DNA of 64,000 bases from Verrucomicrobiaceae bacterium (GTDB lineage: Bacteria > Verrucomicrobiota > Verrucomicrobiia > Verrucomicrobiales > Verrucomicrobiaceae). The stretch lies in NCBI GenBank assembly GCA_019694165.1, contig JAIBCL010000005.1, positions 124,001-188,000 of the forward strand, written 5' to 3'. The notes beneath the pieces are model-generated. The model did no database searches and was not told the origin of the DNA. It saw nothing but the letters and a program-made list of their open reading frames with translations. Below are positions 20,334 to 31,493 of this stretch, in pieces. Every line of letters starts with the position of its first letter. Position 1 is the stretch's first letter. A program made the translations under genes and the position numbers.

Positions 20334-20450
20334 ATGATTCGGGGCGTGATGCGAGTCGGCGAGCGGCGCTTTACAGTTCGTGTGTTGCCAGAGCAGCGGT
20401 CTGTTGTTTATTGGGAAGAGTATGATTATCCGTATCTAGTTGCAGCCTAA
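20334..20450 (+). CDS. Possible short cassette ORF or ORF remnant
   Basis: 38 codons beginning MIRGVMRVGERRF and ending YDYPYLVAA, with the stop inside the R'' region of the first attC. An ORF ending at an attC is the normal arrangement in an integron cassette. The frame is open from 20289, so the true start could be upstream. The family is not recognised; it may be the truncated end of a larger cassette gene. Confidence 0.35.
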   Translation: MIRGVMRVGERRFTVRVLPEQRSVVYWEEYDYPYLVAA

Positions 20451-20564
20451 TGCGCTGTAGCGAACGGCTTCAGCGCCGACCGTTCGAGCGTCTTGGGAGT
20501 TCGTGAGCGCACGGTGCGCTCCACCCGCGCCGCCGAGGCCGTCTCTGAGCTTGGGTCGTTAGCC
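20443..20564 (+). other. attC recombination site 1 (degenerate)
   Basis: The right end reads CTCTGAG (L'), CTTGGGTC spacer, GTTAGCC (R', 20558-20564). The left end reads GCCTAA, then ATGCG and CTGTAGCG (L'', 20455-20462). L'' and L' pair with one unpaired G in L'', one wobble and one mismatch. R'' is damaged relative to the GGCTAAC needed to pair with R'. The ends align closely with attC 2 (shared ATGCGCTG-AGCGAA and CTGAGCTTGG-TCGT). The cassette ORF starts eight bases after R', as usual. Confidence 0.75.
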
Positions 20565-20571
20565 GTCTTGC

Positions 20572-20913
20572 ATGTTCATGCTGCCAGCCATTTTCAATCG
20601 CAAACATCAAGCGGCTGAGGAGTCAGATTTCGGACGCCGTTTCGGTTGGTTCATCGAGCGAGACGGCGAGAGGATTGGTGAGCTTGATTACATCCGCTGG
20701 GATTCGGCGGCACAGTTTTGGCACGAGTATCGACTGGCTTGGCGCAGACCAGAGGATGCAGTGGTTGGTCCAGATGCTTGGATTGCAGCGAAGCTCGTCC
20801 TCCGGAGTCGGCGTTACACCGATGTTGTGATTGATACGTTTCTGACATCACCCGAGCGAGACGCTGGAGTGATTGCAGTTCGAGGTGCGTCTGTTCCTGA
20901 AGAGAGACTTTGA
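20572..20913 (+). CDS. Integron cassette gene, protein of unknown function
   Basis: 113 residues, flanked by attC 1 and attC 2, with start and stop close to each site as in mobile integron cassettes. The sequence is soluble and rich in aromatic and charged residues: GRRFGWFIERDGERIGELDYIRWDSAAQFWHEYRL, then PDAWIAAKLVLRSRRYTDVVIDTFL and a closing GVIAVRGASVPEERL (quoted here in parts). An antiparallel beta-rich start followed by a helix is plausible. No catalytic motif or known family is recognised. A second ATG two codons in is an equally good start. Composition is lower in GC than the chromosomal neighbours, in keeping with transfer. Confidence 0.75.
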   Translation: MFMLPAIFNRKHQAAEESDFGRRFGWFIERDGERIGELDYIRWDSAAQFWHEYRLAWRRPEDAVVGPDAWIAAKLVLRSRRYTDVVIDTFLTSPERDAGVIAVRGASVPEERL

Positions 20914-20925
20914 TACGATGACGAT

Positions 20926-21018
20926 GGCCAGCCATGCGCTGCAGCGAATCCGGCGTGAGCGTCGCGGTTGCAACCGTTGCGTCCCGCGAGCCGGGTCGCT
21001 GAGCTTGGCTCGTCAGGC
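20926..21018 (+). other. attC recombination site 2
   Basis: L'' is CTGCAGCG (20939-20946) and L' is CGCTGAG (20997-21003); they pair perfectly with a single extrahelical G at 20941, the feature that sets strand choice in attC recombination. R' is GTCAGGC (21012-21018) and the R'' region is GCCAGCC (20927-20933), complementary at five of seven positions. The centre folds further: CCGGC with GCCGG, and a perfect palindrome CGGTTGCAACCG at the tip. It ends 11 bp from the stop of the oppositely directed peptidase gene. Confidence 0.8.
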
Positions 21019-21029
21019 GTCGACTGGCT

Positions 21030-22607
21030 TCACAACATAGAGGCAAACGCCTTCCACTGTTCATCGACGCTCTTGCCGGTGATCTGGCCCCACAGCACAT
21101 CGCTGCATTCGCCTCTGCGGAGAGCCGCGTTCAGCTTCGCAACGAGTTCCGCGTGGCCTTGCTTTTCCACCCACTCGAGGAACATCGCCGTGGTCTTGTA
21201 GGCGTCTTTGTAGCTCGCTTTCGCGGGATCGAGCTTCGGTCGTGGCGCGGCGGGCTCATACTTCACGATGCGGATGTAGTCGGCGATGCCTTCGACGAGC
21301 CAGCCAGGGCCGCCGCCGGGATGCGATTGCACGACGTGCGTCAGCTCGTGAACGATCATGCCGAAGTCGTCGGGATGCGCGCGCACGTATTTGGCCGCGA
21401 TGGTTATCTTGCCGCCCGCTGCATGAGCGACGCCAGCCATCGTCGGATCAAAGTAGAGCGTCACTTCTTTCGGTGCGGTGAAGCCATCGCTCGGCAGCAG
21501 CGCGGCGATTTTGGGAAACCACTCGACGCAAAGCGAACCCGCCTTGTGGCCCCATTCCTTGAGGTCGGGCGCATCGTTCGTGTCCACCAGCACCGTCGCA
21601 TTGGCGCTGCTGATCTTGGTCATTGTTCTCTTCGAAGCGATGCCTTTGAGTTCGAGATCGTGGCGGCGCTTCGCTTCATCGCGTTTGAAGATCGGGCCCA
21701 CCTCGACCACGCAATTCTCGCCATCGGTCTTCACCCACGCGCAATCCGGCGAATCCTGCGGCGGCTTGTCCGGATAATAGGCGGACGCTTTCTTCAGCGG
21801 CACCTTTTGTCCGTTCAGTCGCGGCCAGCCAAAGGTGACATTCACCTTCGGGATGCCCGACTTCGGGATCTTCGCCGTGCTATACACCTCGACGAAGGCA
21901 CTGTGCTTCGGCCAGAACGTGAAGTCGGTTCCTTCAAAACGCAGACTGCCCACTTCATGCGTCTGACCGTCCGCTGATCGAATCGAGCAGGTGAACCAGG
22001 TGCAATCGACGTCCTTCACCTTCTCGCTTTTGCCCTTCGTCACGCACCAAGTGTAGGTGCCCTTCGTCCAGGCAAACGGACGACGCACACTCGCGAACTC
22101 GCCCTCATAGCCCGCGCTCTCGACGAGACAATCCTCAGCTGCCGTCTGCACATGATCGAGACCGATGGGAGTCTTCTTGTCGCTCGACCAACGCGAGAAG
22201 ATGCCGCCTTTGCCACGATGCACGCGCTCGCGACTCTCCTTGTTCACCCAGCCATTGATGTTGGTCTGGATGCCGCCGTAGAATTGCAGTCCGTTGATCT
22301 GCGCGATGCCGCAGGGCGAGATGTAGAGGTTGTAGTCGCCCGGCACATCGCGATCGATGGTCACATCCATCTCCAGCGAGGTGAAATGCTCCACCGGCTT
22401 CTCGAACTCCCACCAGATGTTCGCCACATGCCACGGACTGCCCGGCAGCGTGACACCCGCCGCCTTCGCCATGTCTTCCGGTGACGGCTGCTTGCACAGG
22501 TCTTCAGCAGAAGACAAGGCGACGGCGCAACAAACGGCGAGTAACCACACGAAAGGAAAAGCCAGGCGATTGGAGAACATGGCGGCAAAGAATTGAGGCG
22601 TCTTCAT
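21030..22607 (-). CDS. Secreted DUF3472 plus basic-secretory-protein-type metallopeptidase
   Basis: 525 residues with a signal peptide (ends near ALSSAED). Residues about 50-270 look like DUF3472: WWEFEKPVEHFTSLEMDV, GDYNLYISPCGIAQINGLQF and GKGGIFSRW. Residues about 325-520 match the basic secretory protein (plant/bacterial peptidase) family, with the zinc motif HELTH at 420-424, preceded by KYVRAHPDDFGMIV and followed by GGGPGWLVEGIADYIR, where the Glu after the motif is likely functional. Expected role: extracellular Zn-dependent protease. A decayed 88-bp copy of part of this gene lies beyond the adjacent integron cassette. Part of an accessory block with the two following minus-strand genes upstream. 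Confidence 0.8.
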   Translation of the reverse strand: MKTPQFFAAMFSNRLAFPFVWLLAVCCAVALSSAEDLCKQPSPEDMAKAAGVTLPGSPWHVANIWWEFEKPVEHFTSLEMDVTIDRDVPGDYNLYISPCGIAQINGLQFYGGIQTNINGWVNKESRERVHRGKGGIFSRWSSDKKTPIGLDHVQTAAEDCLVESAGYEGEFASVRRPFAWTKGTYTWCVTKGKSEKVKDVDCTWFTCSIRSADGQTHEVGSLRFEGTDFTFWPKHSAFVEVYSTAKIPKSGIPKVNVTFGWPRLNGQKVPLKKASAYYPDKPPQDSPDCAWVKTDGENCVVEVGPIFKRDEAKRRHDLELKGIASKRTMTKISSANATVLVDTNDAPDLKEWGHKAGSLCVEWFPKIAALLPSDGFTAPKEVTLYFDPTMAGVAHAAGGKITIAAKYVRAHPDDFGMIVHELTHVVQSHPGGGPGWLVEGIADYIRIVKYEPAAPRPKLDPAKASYKDAYKTTAMFLEWVEKQGHAELVAKLNAALRRGECSDVLWGQITGKSVDEQWKAFASML

Positions 22608-22759: not shown

Positions 22760-23662
22760 TCACTTCGTCTTCGGCTCGATGCGAACAGCTTCGGGTTTAA
22801 CGGCCGAATTCTTCTTCACGGCTGGCGCTTCGGCCTGCGCTTTCTCCAGCGCCGAATCCCAATCGACTTTCAGCAACACGTCCCAGCCGGGGCTTTGGTT
22901 TTTCACGCGGCAGGAGCAGCGGCCGGTGAGGAACATGGTGATGTCTTCGAGCGCGGCATCGTCGAGGTCCTTCAGCGGGAATGATCCGAGCACGCGGCCG
23001 CGACCGAAGACGGGGGCGGCGAAGGGTTCGCCTTTCGCGAGTGCCTCGGCGCATTTCGTACCGGCGAGCATGGCGCAGAAGAGCTTCTCGGCTTCGTCCT
23101 TCATGGAGACGCGGACGGCGGTGAGTTCGAGTTTCAGTGGCGGACCAGCGCCAAGCTGGCTGTCGGGATCATTCGGATCCTGCGGCGGCAGCGCGACGAC
23201 CTGCTGGAGATAGCGCAGGCGTTTTGAGATGCGGTCAAACTCCGTCTTGTCTTCGGGCGTGCCGTTGTCGGCGAAAACCCAGATGACGGATTCACCGGTG
23301 AGGATGCGCTTGATCAATTCGGTGCGTGCGGGTGATTCGAGGAGCTTTTGCAGCGACTCGGCATTCACGGCTCCGGACCAGATCGGCGGTGCATCGAAGG
23401 TGCCGAAGAGGAGCTGTGCGTCTTTGACGGACGCATCCTTGGCGGTTTCGATCTTGATGTTCGCCGGCGGGTTTCCAATCAGCGGCACGAGCATCTTGGC
23501 GATGTCGGGCTGCTTCGCCATCGCGGCAGGAACGACGAGACGAAACGCATCGGCCGGCCAGCGGTCGAGCGCGTAGCGGAAGACGGGAATGGTGCAGGCG
23601 ACTGCGCTCGCGGCGAGAGCGACGAAGGCAAGCGTGATGAGTGCTGGAGAGCGCGGGCGCAT
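22760..23662 (-). CDS. Exported protein of unknown function
   Basis: 300 residues from MRPRSPALITLAF, chosen because this gives a signal peptide and begins just before the end of the PQQ-propeller gene. Mature start CTIPVFRYALDRWPADAFRLVV is striking and resembles an N-terminal segment seen in PVC exported proteins. Later parts include GESVIWVFADNGTPEDKTEF, a variable linker (PPQDPNDPDSQLG), PVFGRGRVLGSFPLKDLDDAAL and FLTGRCSCRVKNQ with a C-x-C pair. A thioredoxin-like or carrier fold is conceivable but not shown. Three bases after the PQQ gene stop, so surely in the same transcript. Confidence 0.65.
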   Translation of the reverse strand: MRPRSPALITLAFVALAASAVACTIPVFRYALDRWPADAFRLVVPAAMAKQPDIAKMLVPLIGNPPANIKIETAKDASVKDAQLLFGTFDAPPIWSGAVNAESLQKLLESPARTELIKRILTGESVIWVFADNGTPEDKTEFDRISKRLRYLQQVVALPPQDPNDPDSQLGAGPPLKLELTAVRVSMKDEAEKLFCAMLAGTKCAEALAKGEPFAAPVFGRGRVLGSFPLKDLDDAALEDITMFLTGRCSCRVKNQSPGWDVLLKVDWDSALEKAQAEAPAVKKNSAVKPEAVRIEPKTK

Positions 23663-23664
23663 GG

Positions 23665-26600
23665 CTATTTGGCAAAGCACTTCACGCGACCATCCACGGT
23701 GGCGACATACAGTTTGCCGCGCGCCACGATCATGCCGTCCCACGCGGGCGGGCTGTCGAGATCGAGACCGCCGACTTGCTCGCCTGTCTCCACATTCATG
23801 AGCCAGAGTTTCGCGCCGCGCTGACCATTGAGCGATGCGTCCTGCTCTTCGAGATCGTGCTGGATCGCCGGATCCTTCGCGGCCATGCGCTCGAAGGCGT
23901 ATTCTTCATCGAGCAAATCCGGCGGACCAGCGACGGCAAGTGTCTTTCCAGCCAGCGCCATCGAGCGCGTGACGATGGGCACAAAGGTGTCCCAGCCGTG
24001 CTGCACGAAACTTCCGCCGTCCTTGCCGCCTTTGCCGGCCTTCCCTTTGGCGACGGCCTCTTGCGGATTTCTAAACCACAGCGCCACGCCGACTTTGCCT
24101 TTGCCCGTCTCGACGCCGACGCTGATGCCGTTGTTGCCATTGCCGCTGTCGTCGCGCGAGTCGCCATTGTCGAAGGTGCAGATGAGCGCCGATTTCTCCG
24201 GCCTGACAGCAGGCTCGGAGACGCGCTCGAGGATCTCTCCCGCACTCAATGCGCGCATCTGGAGGACGACCTGATCGAGCATGCCGGTGAAGCCATCCAT
24301 CTTCTCCGCGCCGACACCGCTGGTAGAACCAAACTTCAGCGCGACCTTCGGGCGCGCGAGCATTCCCTTCGCCATCGCGGCAGCCATCTTTTGTCCGTCC
24401 ACGTAGAGCGTCGTGGCTTTGTCGGTGTCGAGCACGCCGGCGATGTGATGCCATCCTTCGGCAAGCGATTCGCCGGATGTGATGGTGACCAGTTCCTTGC
24501 CGCCGCGCACGTCGAACTGCGGCTTCCGATCCTTCAATGAAAGCGCGAAGCCCTGGTTCGGGCCGCCCTCGCTGATGATCACGCCATTGTCGCCATCAGG
24601 CATGATCCACGCTTCGATGGTGAACGGGTTCTTGTCGGGAAAGAGGACGCTGGCATCAGGAAACGTGACGCCGCGCTCCGCATTCTGCTGCTTCGCGGCG
24701 GCCTGGGCCTTCTTGCCTTTCTTCTTTCCGCCGCCGCCATCTTTCGCGACATCCACAACGGGCGCTTCCTTGCTCGTGGAGAAAAGCGTGTGCTCCATCG
24801 TCGTGGTCCATTTGAAGTACTTCGCTTCACGACCATACGAGTAAACGTTCTTGTCATCGAACACGAGGATGCGTCCGGTGGGCGCATACTTGCCGGGCTG
24901 GTAATAGCCGCTCGCGCCACCGGCGGAGTGCTCGCCGTAGATCCACAGGCTGCGATGGAACCACTCCTGATCGAGATAACCAAACGCGGCGAAGATGTGC
25001 GGATCGTTTCCATGCTGCGCGGCGCCTTGCTCTGCGGTGCTGCCGCTGACCGGCGCGAGATCCCAGCGCTTGCCCGTCGCGGCTTCGATCTTCTGCGAGC
25101 GCAGATACAGCGTGCCTTTGCCATTGCTGCTGAGGATGTCGTTCAGCGCGGTCGGCATCTGCACGTTCTTGTGCAGCATCTGCAGGTCCTTGCCAGTCTC
25201 AGGATCATTGTGGTCGTAGGCGACTTCGACGAGCTTCTTCCCGCTCTTCGCGTCGAGCTTGATGAATTTCATCCCGCCATCGAGGAAGCACGAGCGGCCG
25301 CAGACGAGATTCACCGTGTCGTTTTCCACCAGCACGCTGCCATGCACCGGCCACACGCTCTCGAGCGACTCGAATGCAAAGTGCCGGAGATCCGTGGGCG
25401 CGGCGTGGAAGCGCCAGACCAGCGCGCCATTGCTCGCACGCAGCGCATACACATTGCCGTCCATGCAGCCGAAGATCACGCGGCCATTCCAATACGTCGG
25501 CGGTGAATCGACGCGCGATCCAGCGATGAAGTGCCACGCTTCCTTGCCGGTGTCGGCATCGTAGGCCCACAGCGTATGCGCATCGACCTGCGAGATGTAG
25601 GCCCTGCCGCCGGCGACGGTCATCGAGCTGAGTTTGCCGCTAAGTTTCACTTCCCACGCCGGCTTCGCGTCCTTCGGCGCTTCCTGCTTCGTGTAGCCGC
25701 TGCGTTCGTTGTCGTGTCGATACGTCGGCCAGTCGTTTGGATCAGCGGGTTCATCCTTCACCCCATCATACGCCGGGCCTTTCACGAGCCGCGCGTCTTC
25801 CGCGAACGGCGCGGGCAGTGGATGTTTGGCCTTCGGCGCGAGCGCATTCATGCCGAAGAGCTTGGCCTCCGGATAGCATGCGCAGTCATGCGGTCCGGCG
25901 TAGGTCAGCCCATTGCAAGGCAGCACGCCATAGAGACACGCGCCGCGCACCCAGTGATTGATCTCCCAGTGCGCTTTAGCTGGATCGACAAACTCAATGC
26001 CTGTGCGCGACGGGATGATGTAGTTGTCGGTCGCCTTTGCGATGTAGCAGCGGTGATGAAACCAGAACGCATCGATGTCGGGATCGAATTCCTTTTTCAC
26101 CACGCCCGTCACGGGGTCGCGCCCGGTGAATTTGCCGCTCATGCTGCCGCTCGTGTCCGGCGCATTCCAGACGAGTCCGCCCGTCACGATCAAATCCTCC
26201 GGCGAGCGATAGCCCGACTTCTCGTGCGGCGCGAGCCATGCTTCCTTGCCGGTGGCCGCTTCGAGGCCCTTCATCGTGCCATCGCCGCCGGCGTAGAGAA
26301 TCATGTCGCCGTCGATCAGCAGGCGCGGGCCGAAGTTGAACTCGAAGACTTTTCTCTTCGGCTCCGGCACGCTGGCCCAGTTCTGCACACCGGTCTTTGG
26401 GTCGAGACAGATGATCTTGTCGCCATCAAAATAGACGAGCCGCTTACCGTCGCAGGAGGTCGTGATCGGCGCGACGAGGCCTTCCTTTTTCCACAGCACC
26501 TTGCCGGTGTCGGGGTTCACAGCGACCAGCACGCGTGGTTTGCGATCCCATTCGTACTCCTGCGCCACGCGGCCCTGGTCGTTCTGATTTTGCGGCGCGT

Positions 26601-27576
26601 AATCCTTCAGCACATATTGGCCCGACGGATTCGTGAGCACGTAAAGCGTGCCGCTCGAGTAGATCATCTCCTCCGCGCCCTTCGTCTCCTCAAACGTGCG
26701 GACGACTTCCCCCGTGCCCGCATCCACACAGCTCACCGGTGCCGTGATGCCGAGCGTGACGAAGATGCGGTCGCCATCGGCCACCAGCCTGCGCGTGAGC
26801 TGCGTCGGCCCTGTTTTCAGCGGCCACATGTTCGTGCTCCACTCCGCGATCGGTTTCTTCCAGAGCACGACGCCGTTGAACGCATTGCGTGCGATGAGAG
26901 AAAACTTGGCCGGCAACAGGATCGAAGTCCGCGAGCCCTCGTCCATGATGTAAAACAACCGGCCGAGCGACGACACCATCGCCGTCAGGCTGCTCATGCG
27001 GTCGTGATGCCGAGACCAGCGCGGACTGCCCAGCCATTGCAAGCGCTCCGGCGGTCCGACTTCCTTGTCGTGCGACACCGCATTGCCCGCCGCGCTGTAA
27101 TAATAATGCGTCCACCCGTCCATGTCGGCCGGCCACGCCTTCACCGCTTTCTGCCAGGCGCCGTTTTGCTTCGTCATCGTCACGCCGAGAGGCGAAACCA
27201 CGCGCTCGATCTCTTCCGGCGACACCTTCTGCCCGTCGTCGATCACCAGCAGATTCACCGAGCCCTCGACATAAGGCAGGTCCTTTCCATTCCACGCATC
27301 CACACCCACCGGCCCATACACGCCCTTCTTCAAAATCGACTCACGCACTGTCACGACACTGCCCGCGTCCGACACCAGCCCATGAACCTGATAGCCATCC
27401 CCTGCCTTCAGCGCCGCAGTCAGCGAACCATCACCCGCCCCCACATGGACCACGAAACCCCCTTTGATGCCTGATTGGGTGAGAATGTCCTTCGCCAGTT
27501 TTGCAGAGTCTGCGTCGGACGCAAAAGCGGCTGCGGCGATGAAAAACAGGGCGGCTGATAAACAGAGCGGTTTCAT
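23665..27576 (-). CDS. Exported methyltransferase-like / PQQ-propeller / LamG fusion protein
   Basis: 1303 residues with a signal peptide (MKPLCLSAALFFIAAAAFA). Residues about 25-125 resemble a Rossmann methyltransferase: FVVHVGAGDGSLTAAL, VHGLVSDAG, VNLLVIDDG. Residues 150-560 and 610-960 contain PQQ-like beta-propeller blades (AVNPDTGKVLWKKEG, CLDPKTGVQNWAS, AYDADTGKEAWHF, ALRASNGALVWRF). Residues about 965-1150 are a LamG/concanavalin-like domain (FTIEAWIMPDG, WHHIAGVLDTDKATTLYVDG), preceded by a Lys/Gly-rich linker. The C-terminus returns to a propeller-like strand (GKLYVATVDGRVKCF). The role is unknown; carbohydrate or electron-transfer function is inference. Operon with the 300-residue exported protein downstream. 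Confidence 0.75.
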   Translation of the reverse strand: MKPLCLSAALFFIAAAAFASDADSAKLAKDILTQSGIKGGFVVHVGAGDGSLTAALKAGDGYQVHGLVSDAGSVVTVRESILKKGVYGPVGVDAWNGKDLPYVEGSVNLLVIDDGQKVSPEEIERVVSPLGVTMTKQNGAWQKAVKAWPADMDGWTHYYYSAAGNAVSHDKEVGPPERLQWLGSPRWSRHHDRMSSLTAMVSSLGRLFYIMDEGSRTSILLPAKFSLIARNAFNGVVLWKKPIAEWSTNMWPLKTGPTQLTRRLVADGDRIFVTLGITAPVSCVDAGTGEVVRTFEETKGAEEMIYSSGTLYVLTNPSGQYVLKDYAPQNQNDQGRVAQEYEWDRKPRVLVAVNPDTGKVLWKKEGLVAPITTSCDGKRLVYFDGDKIICLDPKTGVQNWASVPEPKRKVFEFNFGPRLLIDGDMILYAGGDGTMKGLEAATGKEAWLAPHEKSGYRSPEDLIVTGGLVWNAPDTSGSMSGKFTGRDPVTGVVKKEFDPDIDAFWFHHRCYIAKATDNYIIPSRTGIEFVDPAKAHWEINHWVRGACLYGVLPCNGLTYAGPHDCACYPEAKLFGMNALAPKAKHPLPAPFAEDARLVKGPAYDGVKDEPADPNDWPTYRHDNERSGYTKQEAPKDAKPAWEVKLSGKLSSMTVAGGRAYISQVDAHTLWAYDADTGKEAWHFIAGSRVDSPPTYWNGRVIFGCMDGNVYALRASNGALVWRFHAAPTDLRHFAFESLESVWPVHGSVLVENDTVNLVCGRSCFLDGGMKFIKLDAKSGKKLVEVAYDHNDPETGKDLQMLHKNVQMPTALNDILSSNGKGTLYLRSQKIEAATGKRWDLAPVSGSTAEQGAAQHGNDPHIFAAFGYLDQEWFHRSLWIYGEHSAGGASGYYQPGKYAPTGRILVFDDKNVYSYGREAKYFKWTTTMEHTLFSTSKEAPVVDVAKDGGGGKKKGKKAQAAAKQQNAERGVTFPDASVLFPDKNPFTIEAWIMPDGDNGVIISEGGPNQGFALSLKDRKPQFDVRGGKELVTITSGESLAEGWHHIAGVLDTDKATTLYVDGQKMAAAMAKGMLARPKVALKFGSTSGVGAEKMDGFTGMLDQVVLQMRALSAGEILERVSEPAVRPEKSALICTFDNGDSRDDSGNGNNGISVGVETGKGKVGVALWFRNPQEAVAKGKAGKGGKDGGSFVQHGWDTFVPIVTRSMALAGKTLAVAGPPDLLDEEYAFERMAAKDPAIQHDLEEQDASLNGQRGAKLWLMNVETGEQVGGLDLDSPPAWDGMIVARGKLYVATVDGRVKCFAK

Positions 27577-27984
27577 GGAGGAGTGACTGGGATGTGACCG
27601 CGTGAAACGTCACGAGCCCGGGGTGCTATCACGATTCTATACCCGAAGGCAAGCAGGCTTGTTTGAGCCGATGATCTCAAGGGGCATGACCGGCTGGCGA
27701 ACGGTCACGCGATCCATCGGCAAAATGCACCGACAGGCCCTGCAGCACATAGCGTCCCTGCCATGAAGAAGAGAATTGCTGCCCCTGATGGCTGAGCCGG
27801 GTGATAATACCTTTTGCCTGCGCACTCGGCCGCAACTCTCGATTGGCGGCGGAATTTTCGTTTCGCGCGTCCACGAGCGGATGTCGTACGAGGCTCTACC
27901 GGCGCACCGCCCGTGCTTCAACGCACACCGCGATAGCAGCGCCGACCGCCAAACACAACATGGGCGACGCGCTCAAATCGTGCC
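27577..27984. other. Gene-free stretch between the PQQ gene and the intI remnant
   Basis: About 400 bp. It must contain the promoter of the PQQ-propeller operon at its left end. No frame shows recognisable similarity. Short minus-strand open frames here could be further decayed gene pieces, and the lost 5' half of the integrase may once have lain here. No repeats or sites were identified. Confidence 0.4.
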
Positions 27985-28519
27985 GCTCATATGGCGAGTG
28001 CTCATTTCGAAGCCACTGGCAAACCGCGGTCAACATCTCGTGGCAGGCAAAGGAGAAAATGGATCGCGTCGTCGCACTGCCAGTCGCCCTGCACGAGCCG
28101 GTGGTGATGCAGATGCGCACGGCAGAGGCGATGGCAAATCTGCCCGTGGACCTGCCTGGCTCGGTCACCAAGAAGCATCCGCGCCCAATTCGACGGCGGC
28201 AGGGCCTTGCAATTCCGGGGAGGGAGGCCGCTCGCCTATCGGCACACCGGCAAGCAAGCGCCCCGCCATATGCATGTGGTCACAATGTGCAGCGCGCAGC
28301 GCTGCAGATGGCAGCCAAAGCCAGAGTCGGAGCCAAGGTCACGCCGCACATACTGCGCCACACCTTGCCACCCATGCTCATGGCGTGGGCGCGGCGGTGC
28401 GCGATCTCCAGGCGGTGCTGGGCCACATACGGCTGGAGACGACGATGCGCTGGCTCGAGGCGCGCCCTGCGGCAGTGCGCAGCCCGCTGAATGATCTGGC
28501 ATCTGCGGCAGCAAGGTGA
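27985..28519 (+). pseudogene. Frameshifted integron integrase (intI) remnant
   Basis: Similarity to IntI is spread over three frames. In order: LVAGKGE (28040s), DRVVALPVALHEP from 28062 (deleting one T near 28059 would give GKGEKDRVV), LPGSVTKKHP matching the IntI-specific ARKYP region, RPLAYRHTGKQAPRHMHV from about 28225 in another frame, VQRAALQMAAKARVGAKVTPHILRHT, then LATH, LQAVLGH, ETTMRW and the terminal VRSPLNDLA. The HxxR and LGH boxes survive, but the catalytic Tyr position (TTMIY in IntI) is Trp, TGG at 28451-28453. The N-terminal half is missing. At least four frameshifts: not functional. The remnant stops 14 bp before the sialidase start. Confidence 0.85.
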
Positions 28520-28532
28520 ACATTCCCGAATC

Positions 28533-31493
28533 ATGAAGCTCCGCACTCTTGTCCTTCCCGTTCTCACCGCGCTCGGCTCCATCGCGCCGGCTGCCGATCC
28601 CGAGTTTTTTGATGTCTTCGTCCCTGGCAAAGACGGTTACCCGGCGATTCGCATTCCTTCCGTCCTGGTGACGAGGCAAGGCAGCGTGCTCGCCTTTGCG
28701 GAGGCGCGGAAGACGCTCGGGGATCAGAGCGAGAACGACATCGTCACGAAGCGCAGCACCGATGGCGGCGCGACGTGGAGCGCGCTGAAGCTCATTCACG
28801 ATGACGGCGCGAACTCGCTAAACAACCCCACCGCCGTCGTCGAGCAGCAAAGCGGTCGCGTCTTCCTGATGTATCAGCGCATCCCGGCGCATCTGCACGA
28901 ATCGAGCAAGGAGACCGCGACCGGGCTCGATGGCCCGAACATCTATCGTAACTTCCTCGTGTGGTCCGATGACGATGGCGTGACGTGGAGCAAGCCGTTC
29001 GATGTCACGGCAACCACGAAGCGCCCCGAGCGTGCGACGACCATTTGCAGCGGTCCCGGTGTCGGCATTCAGCTCACGCACGGACCGCAGAAAGGAAGAC
29101 TGATCATTCCCTTCAACGAAGGTCCGTTCTGGCAGTGGCAGAACTTCGCGGTGTTCAGTGACGATGCAGGCAAGACATGGAGCTATGGCAAGGATGCGCC
29201 AGGAGCCTTGCTGCCAGATGCGAAGATGAAGACCCGCAGTCAGGTCAATGAAGTCCAAATGGTGGAACTCAACGCAGGTGGTGTGCGCATCGACAGCCGC
29301 CAGTTTGCAGGCGCACGAGTGCGCAAGACGGCGACGAGTTACGACGGCGGATCGACTTGGAACAATGTGCGTGACATTGCCGACATTCGCGACCCGAGCT
29401 GCATGGCCGGCGTGTTGCGCTACTCCTTTGATGACGGCAGCGGCATGGGCAAGATCATCCACACCGGCCCCGACAGTAACAAGCGCGATCACGGCACGGT
29501 CTATCTCAGCCTCGACGACGGCGCGACCTTTCCCATCAAGCGCGAGCTGTATGCTGGCGGCTTCGCTTACAGCATGCCGACGCGTCTCGCCGATGGACGC
29601 GTGGGCGTGCTCTTCGAGGCGGACAACTACAAGCGCATCGCCTTCGCGCGCTTCGGCATCGACTGGCTTACGCGCGACGTGAACTACGCCACCGAGCCTG
29701 AGTCACGCAGCGAGCGTGCGGGCAAGTTCGGCTGGTGGATGGCGCGGCACGAGCAGAAGCTGGAGGAGATCAAAACCGGTGCCGACATCATCTTCCTCGG
29801 TGACTCGATCACGCAGAACTGGGAAGTCGCTGGCAAGGACGTTTGGCAGCAGCACTTCGGGAATCGCAAGGCGATCAACCTCGGCTTCGGCGGCGACAGC
29901 ACGCAGCATGTGCTCTGGCGTCTCGATCACGGTGAACTCGACAACGTGCATCCGAAGCTCGTCGTGCTGCTCATCGGCACCAACAACGCCCGCCACAGCG
30001 AAGCCTCGCCCGCGCAGATCGCCGCTGGCGTGGAGGAGATCGTGAAGCTCATTCATTTGAAAGCACCGAGCGCCAAGGTGTTGCTGCACGCCGTCTTCCC
30101 ACGCGGTCCAGATGCGAATGATCCGGTGCGCAAACGCTGCGAAGAGATCAGCCTCACCGTGCGTCGTCGTGCTGCGACGATGCGCGCCGAGTTCATCGAC
30201 ATCGGCGCAAAGCTCATGAACAAAGACGGCACCGTGAGCAAGCACATCATGCCCGACCTGCTGCACCTCAGCGCCAAGGGTTATGAGATCTGGGCGAAGG
30301 CGATCGAGCCGAAGATCAATGAGATTGCATCCGCAGGGTTGCGCGTGCCTGCCTTCACCGCCTACGCTGACCCTAATGCGGATGGGTTGAAGGTCTCGAA
30401 GGAGCAAGGTATCTCGAACTGGAAAGACGGCACGCAGCGTGTGCTCTGGTTTGGCGAGCTGAAGGCTGCGGGAGCACTCACGGCATCGGTGGCGGTGAAG
30501 GCCATGGACGGTGTGAAGCTGAAGCTTGCAGTGAATGGCGAGGCGCACGACGCAACGGTGAAGAGTGGCGCAGCAGAATTCGGAGGCTTCGCGATCGCGA
30601 AGGCAGGCTACACGAAGTTCGAACTGTCGCTCGTGAGCGGCGAAGTCGAAGCGGTGGATGCGCTTGTGCTCGATGGTGCGGCGGCGTCCAATGCGCATTT
30701 CAACCTGGAGCCGCGTCGCAATGCGTCATCGGTGCATCTCATGTATCCGCTGCCGAAGGACGCGGAGGTGGCGATGTTCTACAACGAGGTCACAGCGGTG
30801 AAGGATCCCGTTTACACCTTCTACATGGCCTGCGGCTTCTCGCGCGGCTACTTCGGCATGCAGGTGAACTCGGCGACGGAGCGGCGTATCATCTTCTCCG
30901 TGTGGGACTCGGGCGCAGGTCAGGGCGCGAAGGATCGCAGCACGGTGGCGGCTGATGACCAGACGCAACTCCTGGGCAAAGGTGAGGGCGTGGAGGCGAG
31001 CGTGTTCGGCAACGAAGGCACCGGCAGGCACTCGCATCTGCTGTATCCGTGGAAGACGGGCGAGGCGCAGAAGTTCATTGTCACTGCGAAGGCCGATGGC
31101 ACGCACACGATCTACTCGGGCTACTGGTTTCATCCCGAGAAACAAAGCTGGATTCTGATCGCCAGCTTCCGCGCACCGAAGGATGGCAGGCTGCTGCGCG
31201 GACTGCATTCATTCAGTGAAAACTTCGGCGGCAGCAACGGCCACCTCCAGCGCAAGGCGCTCTACGGTCCGCAGTGGATCGCTGACACCAAGGGTCAGTG
31301 GACCGAGCTGCTCGAAGCGAAGTTCAGCCACGATCCGACCGGCAAGTCAGCGCGACTCGATCGATTTATGGGCGTGGAGAACGGACGGTTCTTCCTCTCG
31401 CACGGCGGCTTCGTCGAGGGCTGCACGAAGTATGGCGAGCCCTTCACGCGCACAGCGACGAAGGCACCGGTGGTGAAGCTGCCGCAACCTTGA
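28533..31493 (+). CDS. Sialidase / SGNH esterase / DUF3472 fusion, exported
   Basis: 986 residues from MKLRTLVLPVL, which gives a signal peptide. Residues about 20-395 are a sialidase (GH33-type) propeller: IRIPS (catalytic Arg motif) near 38 and five Asp boxes of the type S-x-D-x-G-x-T-W (STDGGATW, SDDDGVTW, SDDAGKTW, SYDGGSTW, SLDDGATF). Residues about 410-600 are an SGNH/GDSL hydrolase: FLGDSIT with nucleophile Ser425, NLGFGGDST, LIGTNNA and DLLHLSAKGY with catalytic Asp and His. Residues about 610-705 resemble DUF5077 and 720-985 DUF3472 (FYMACGFSRGYFGMQVNS). Expected role: removal of sialic acid, and perhaps of its O-acetyl groups, from host or environmental glycans; esterase specificity is inferred. 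Confidence 0.85.
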   Translation: MKLRTLVLPVLTALGSIAPAADPEFFDVFVPGKDGYPAIRIPSVLVTRQGSVLAFAEARKTLGDQSENDIVTKRSTDGGATWSALKLIHDDGANSLNNPTAVVEQQSGRVFLMYQRIPAHLHESSKETATGLDGPNIYRNFLVWSDDDGVTWSKPFDVTATTKRPERATTICSGPGVGIQLTHGPQKGRLIIPFNEGPFWQWQNFAVFSDDAGKTWSYGKDAPGALLPDAKMKTRSQVNEVQMVELNAGGVRIDSRQFAGARVRKTATSYDGGSTWNNVRDIADIRDPSCMAGVLRYSFDDGSGMGKIIHTGPDSNKRDHGTVYLSLDDGATFPIKRELYAGGFAYSMPTRLADGRVGVLFEADNYKRIAFARFGIDWLTRDVNYATEPESRSERAGKFGWWMARHEQKLEEIKTGADIIFLGDSITQNWEVAGKDVWQQHFGNRKAINLGFGGDSTQHVLWRLDHGELDNVHPKLVVLLIGTNNARHSEASPAQIAAGVEEIVKLIHLKAPSAKVLLHAVFPRGPDANDPVRKRCEEISLTVRRRAATMRAEFIDIGAKLMNKDGTVSKHIMPDLLHLSAKGYEIWAKAIEPKINEIASAGLRVPAFTAYADPNADGLKVSKEQGISNWKDGTQRVLWFGELKAAGALTASVAVKAMDGVKLKLAVNGEAHDATVKSGAAEFGGFAIAKAGYTKFELSLVSGEVEAVDALVLDGAAASNAHFNLEPRRNASSVHLMYPLPKDAEVAMFYNEVTAVKDPVYTFYMACGFSRGYFGMQVNSATERRIIFSVWDSGAGQGAKDRSTVAADDQTQLLGKGEGVEASVFGNEGTGRHSHLLYPWKTGEAQKFIVTAKADGTHTIYSGYWFHPEKQSWILIASFRAPKDGRLLRGLHSFSENFGGSNGHLQRKALYGPQWIADTKGQWTELLEAKFSHDPTGKSARLDRFMGVENGRFFLSHGGFVEGCTKYGEPFTRTATKAPVVKLPQP

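Follow-up and report, generated by a model that had tools for sequence, protein, structure and literature searches.

A broken integron-integrase gene and two degraded attC sites in a Verrucomicrobiaceae genome, probably relics of a single dead chromosomal integron

The window analyzed here, a stretch of 64,000 nucleotides (contig C12, positions 124001-188000) from the 7.8-Mb genome of a Verrucomicrobiaceae bacterium assembled in 66 contigs, carries near 28 kb a frame-broken sequence with peptide signatures of an integrase and, about 7 kb away from it, two candidate attC sites. This locus raises the question whether the broken gene once encoded an integron integrase (IntI), and whether the gene and the sites are the remains of one and the same integron. 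In a survey of 103 integron-bearing bacteria, about one third of the intI genes were pseudogenes and more than one intI was present in more than a fifth of the lineages (PMC2426708). Clusters of attC sites lacking an integrase, that is at least two attC sites with a functional integrase absent nearby, are termed CALIN (IntegronFinder 2.0; PMC9024848). Within the bacterial family to which the window belongs, a strong intI match is carried by 28 of 68 genomes, some of these genes being truncated or containing an internal stop, and among named genomes the nearest relative of the short-type IntI of this family comes from a Prosthecobacter MAG. The features of the locus are listed in Table 1.

Table 1. 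Features of the integron relics and of the neighbouring genes (window positions).
Feature	Position	Strand	Remarks
attC site 1	20443..20567	+	decayed core GCCTAAT ... GTTAGCC; 62 bits
attC site 2	20924..21021	+	degraded R'' box, GTCAGGC instead of GTTAGGC; 51 bits
Cassette A	20334..20450	+	38-codon ORF, TAA stop within the R'' box of attC site 1; left end undefined
Cassette B	20572..20913	+	113-aa ORF between the two attC sites; GC by codon position differs from that of host genes
DUF3472 + BSP peptidase gene, intervening	21030..22607	-	stop codon 9 bases from the end of attC site 2
Conserved partner of the PQQ gene, intervening	22760..23743	-	
PQQ beta-propeller + LamG protein gene, intervening	23665..27576	-	1303 aa
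intI pseudogene, C-terminal half	28046..28519	+	at least 4 frame changes, Trp at catalytic Tyr position, N-terminal half missing
Remnant, upstream part	28046..28277	+	GKGE/DRVVALP and IntI-specific patch (LPGSVTKKHP ... TGKQAPRHMHV)
Remnant, downstream part	28278..28519	+	VTPHILRHT (HxxR), LGH, ETTMRW (Tyr to Trp), RSPLNDLA tail
BNR/sialidase-like + GDSL + DUF3472 protein gene, right-hand neighbour	28536..31493	+	

For the identification of the broken gene, a purpose-written frameshift-aware local aligner was applied to positions 27600-28560, using intact integron integrases of the same family, XerC and XerD of this genome and two other tyrosine recombinases as references. Positions 28046-28498 of the plus strand aligned with integron integrases over their C-terminal half. 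The best score of 154 was obtained with an IntI (L030); the intact intI on contig C179 of a relative (G063) was among the best matches with 147, and the genome's own intact IntI reached 126, compared to 87 for both XerC and XerD. For 194 random stretches of the window the mean score was 39 (SD 4.8, maximum 64). Due to the fact that the stretch from HxxR to LGH is common to XerC/D, the upstream part alone provides a fair test between IntI and Xer. Over positions 28040-28277, which comprise the IntI-specific patch, IntI scored 72, random stretches 41±6 (maximum 56), XerC 30 and XerD 41. The downstream part alone gave 120 for IntI and 87 for Xer versus 41±6 for random stretches.

A read-through peptide, assembled by following the IntI alignment and therefore somewhat biased to IntI, matched the NCBIfam integron integrase model TIGR02249 with 63.5 bits over 151 residues, and the XerC and XerD models with 38.9 and 35.1 bits, respectively, each over about 50 residues. 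The 63.5 bits lie below the curated cut-off of 265, as expected for half a broken gene. Single frames of the remnant also match an IntI profile. An origin of the remnant from an XerC/XerD or phage integrase can practically be dismissed: the stretch from HxxR to LGH, being common to all these families, would fit it, but Xer remains at background over the upstream patch and far below IntI over the whole remnant, the RSPLNDL tail resembles IntI, and the integron integrase is the best NCBIfam model. The patch-only and whole-remnant scores ruled this candidate out. The remnant is an integron-integrase pseudogene and neither an Xer nor a phage integrase, in agreement with the preliminary description of this DNA, which had proposed an integron integrase on the basis of peptide pieces that are indeed present, in order, in three forward frames. 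The remnant is about 31% identical to its best IntI relatives and scores alike against proteobacterial IntI and IntI of the verrucomicrobial family; it is too diverged for placement in an IntI lineage, which failed.

Changes of frame were located at about 28058, at about either 28182 and 28312 or 28242 and 28279 depending on the reference, and at 28365, and no in-frame stops were found in the aligned part of the remnant. The catalytic HxxR is kept (VTPHILRHT at about 28338-28364), LGH is present near 28415, and the position of the catalytic tyrosine is occupied by tryptophan (ATG CGC TGG at 28445). Both this substitution and a frame change near 28059 had been pointed out before and are correct; the start of the IntI sequence, formerly placed at 27985, has to be moved to 28046. 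Since positions 27577-28046 matched IntI no better than random sequence, the N-terminal half is missing, and with it the first catalytic arginine (GLR). This half was sought elsewhere in the window, including the left end of the inversion proposed below, and nothing above background was detected. The GC content by codon position of each piece, read in its own IntI frame, follows the pattern of the window's real genes (e.g. 0.78/0.40/0.80), which indicates that the pieces were once coding. Open reading frames of 229 aa and 247 aa over the remnant were rejected as functional genes, because neither contains more than a portion of the IntI sequence and the frame showing the codon GC pattern changes where that of the alignment does. 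As the lesions are many and independent, sequencing error is an improbable cause. The remnant is a dead gene, a relic of IntI that gives rise to no working enzyme.

A simple attC finder with strict criteria missed attC site 2, and the question was settled by homologues and by a covariance model built from 11 sites from other genomes, with the window excluded. In the whole 7.8-Mb genome only two strong matches to this model were found, both of them in the window. A weak third match (contig C22, 22.6 bits) is without core motifs and was not counted. The first site aligns nearly end to end with an attC in an array of G063, the second shows homology over its full length to an attC of G064, and in relatives homologous attC sites with intact cores occur in arrays beside intact intI genes, e.g. 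on contig C179 of G063. The attC sites named in the preliminary description are borne out by these independent homologues and by the covariance model, and both sites are confirmed as real, with damaged cores. Two in number and with a functional integrase absent nearby, they qualify as a CALIN. The position of the stop codon of cassette A inside the R'' box is usual for cassettes. The protein of cassette B gave no match in Pfam, NCBIfam or PHROGs; its gene has a third-position GC content of 0.49 versus 0.78 in host genes, which is expected of a foreign cassette. Neither the array nor the remnant nor cassette B was found on plasmids, where searches returned only trivial matches or none. Four genera of the bacterial family share one recurrent attC sequence family (GCCTAACCATGCGCTGCAGCGAAC ... 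GTCGCTGAGCTTGGG(G)TCGTTAGGC; L181-L190, L070, L072).

The cassettes are located on the 5' side of the remnant and on the same strand, 7 kb apart from it and with three host genes between. In eight of eight relatives (G006, G012, G031, G034, G063, G064, G070, G075), namely those whose fetched intI locus holds a match to the attC model at E<0.01, some of the matches being weak (20-31 bits), attC lies 5' of intI and is carried by the strand opposite to it. This canonical layout is also seen in three overlapping views of these intI loci. The window departs from the layout of a complete integron, in which intI adjoins the array and the cassettes lie on the opposite strand. The PQQ gene is accompanied by its downstream partner in other genomes as well. 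In G010 and G005, a homologue of the BSP peptidase gene immediately follows that of the right-hand neighbour on the same strand. In the window the BSP peptidase gene is instead situated beyond the PQQ gene and reversed; the gene order in the window has therefore changed. The preliminary description had deduced a rearrangement or an insertion of the intervening genes, a wording that covers either event and accords with the non-canonical relative orientation and the displaced neighbour gene. A DNA search of 57 genomes for the orthologous locus returned none except the window itself, and the gene order near the MFS neighbour is not conserved. The right-hand neighbour is 86-92% identical to an ORF pair in G010 (L059), which belongs to a different genus and in which the surroundings differ; horizontal transfer of this gene is possible.

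The arrangement is explained with a probability of roughly 0.65 by a single dead chromosomal integron, split most simply by an inversion of about 7.5 kb. According to this explanation, the verrucomicrobial chromosome would formerly have carried a small chromosomal integron at this locus. The integrase gene has lost its N-terminal half and gained the frameshifts and the Tyr-to-Trp change, and the two remaining attC sites have lost their core motifs, so that one whole cassette and one without a defined left end are left. A single inversion, with one end at 20.2-20.4 kb and the other at 27.6-28.0 kb, may have separated the cassettes from the integrase, and inverting this block once would bring back the canonical layout. 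A search for inverted repeats at these ends gave only weak, chance-like pairs, the missing half of IntI was not detected at the left end, and no relative keeping the uninverted order was found; therefore the inversion is an event that we infer from the layout. In this light the earlier reading, which takes the remnant for the second half of a dead integron, is likely rather than proven, since the remnant defied assignment to the integrase lineage accompanying those attC sites.

Against a single integron speaks the unequal decay of its parts, attC site 1 being still close to the site of a living relative and the remnant only about 31% identical to IntI; the remnant and the attC relics may differ in age. 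Such a difference would follow from two unrelated relics, an orphan integrase fragment and a separately acquired CALIN, to which the failed assignment to an IntI lineage, the non-canonical same-strand orientation with 7 kb spacing and the presence of a further intI with another remnant on contig C38, by which integron relics are not unique to this locus, would also conform. We regard this origin as unlikely, given that the only two strong attC sites of a 7.8-Mb genome are located no more than 7 kb from an intI remnant, of which the genome has few, and on its 5' side. It is improbable that the three host genes entered one dead integron by insertion between its intI and its array instead of being moved by an inversion: the joint travel of the PQQ gene with its partner and the displacement of the BSP gene relative to G010 and G005 favour an insertion, but this event alone leaves the same-strand position of the cassettes with respect to intI unexplained. 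The chance is very small that the integron, before its death, relocated or inverted a set of ordinary chromosomal genes by its own recombination activity and so brought them between cassettes and intI; if true, this would be a case of an integron rearranging its host chromosome.

An intact IntI of about 470 aa (395 bits) is encoded elsewhere in the genome at the end of contig C38. The relics in the window cannot recombine by themselves; the intact enzyme might in principle act on the attC sites of the window, but their cores are damaged. Directly downstream of the intact gene a second decayed integrase tail was observed (L001, G000:C38:245564-248708), which reads RHHMHGIMV...VTAHTLRHSFATHLILRG..., a stop and then ...SPLDDL and resembles the short IntI type. 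A long IntI type with open frames of 463-523 aa and about 130-150 extra N-terminal residues (L001, L026, L028, L029, L031-L033) recurs in the bacterial family alongside the type of about 340 aa. An IntI clade about 120 aa longer than usual has been described (PMC2426708) and may correspond to the long type of this family.

Pseudogenes of intI and orphan attC clusters are already well documented and dead integrons are common. Considering the published frequency of intI pseudogenes and the broken intI genes of the family, the relic in the window represents a further example of a known phenomenon. It adds to the record of integron loss in Verrucomicrobia and leaves the general understanding of integrons unchanged. 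Integrases too broken for ordinary gene finding are recoverable near attC clusters, and such recovery bears on whether these clusters are dead integrons. The remnant is similar to the frameshifted intI pseudogenes of 'pseudo-integrons', whose genomes may hold another intI (Nemergut et al. 2008, PMC2426708); unlike those, half of the intI is gone and the attC sites lie 7 kb off in a non-canonical orientation. The two attC sites without a functional integrase nearby correspond to a CALIN (PMC9024848), but a recognisable integrase relic remains 7 kb from them. With the intact integron on contig C179 of G063 the window shares homologous attC sites, whereas in G063 an intact intI has its cassettes directly beside it in divergent orientation.
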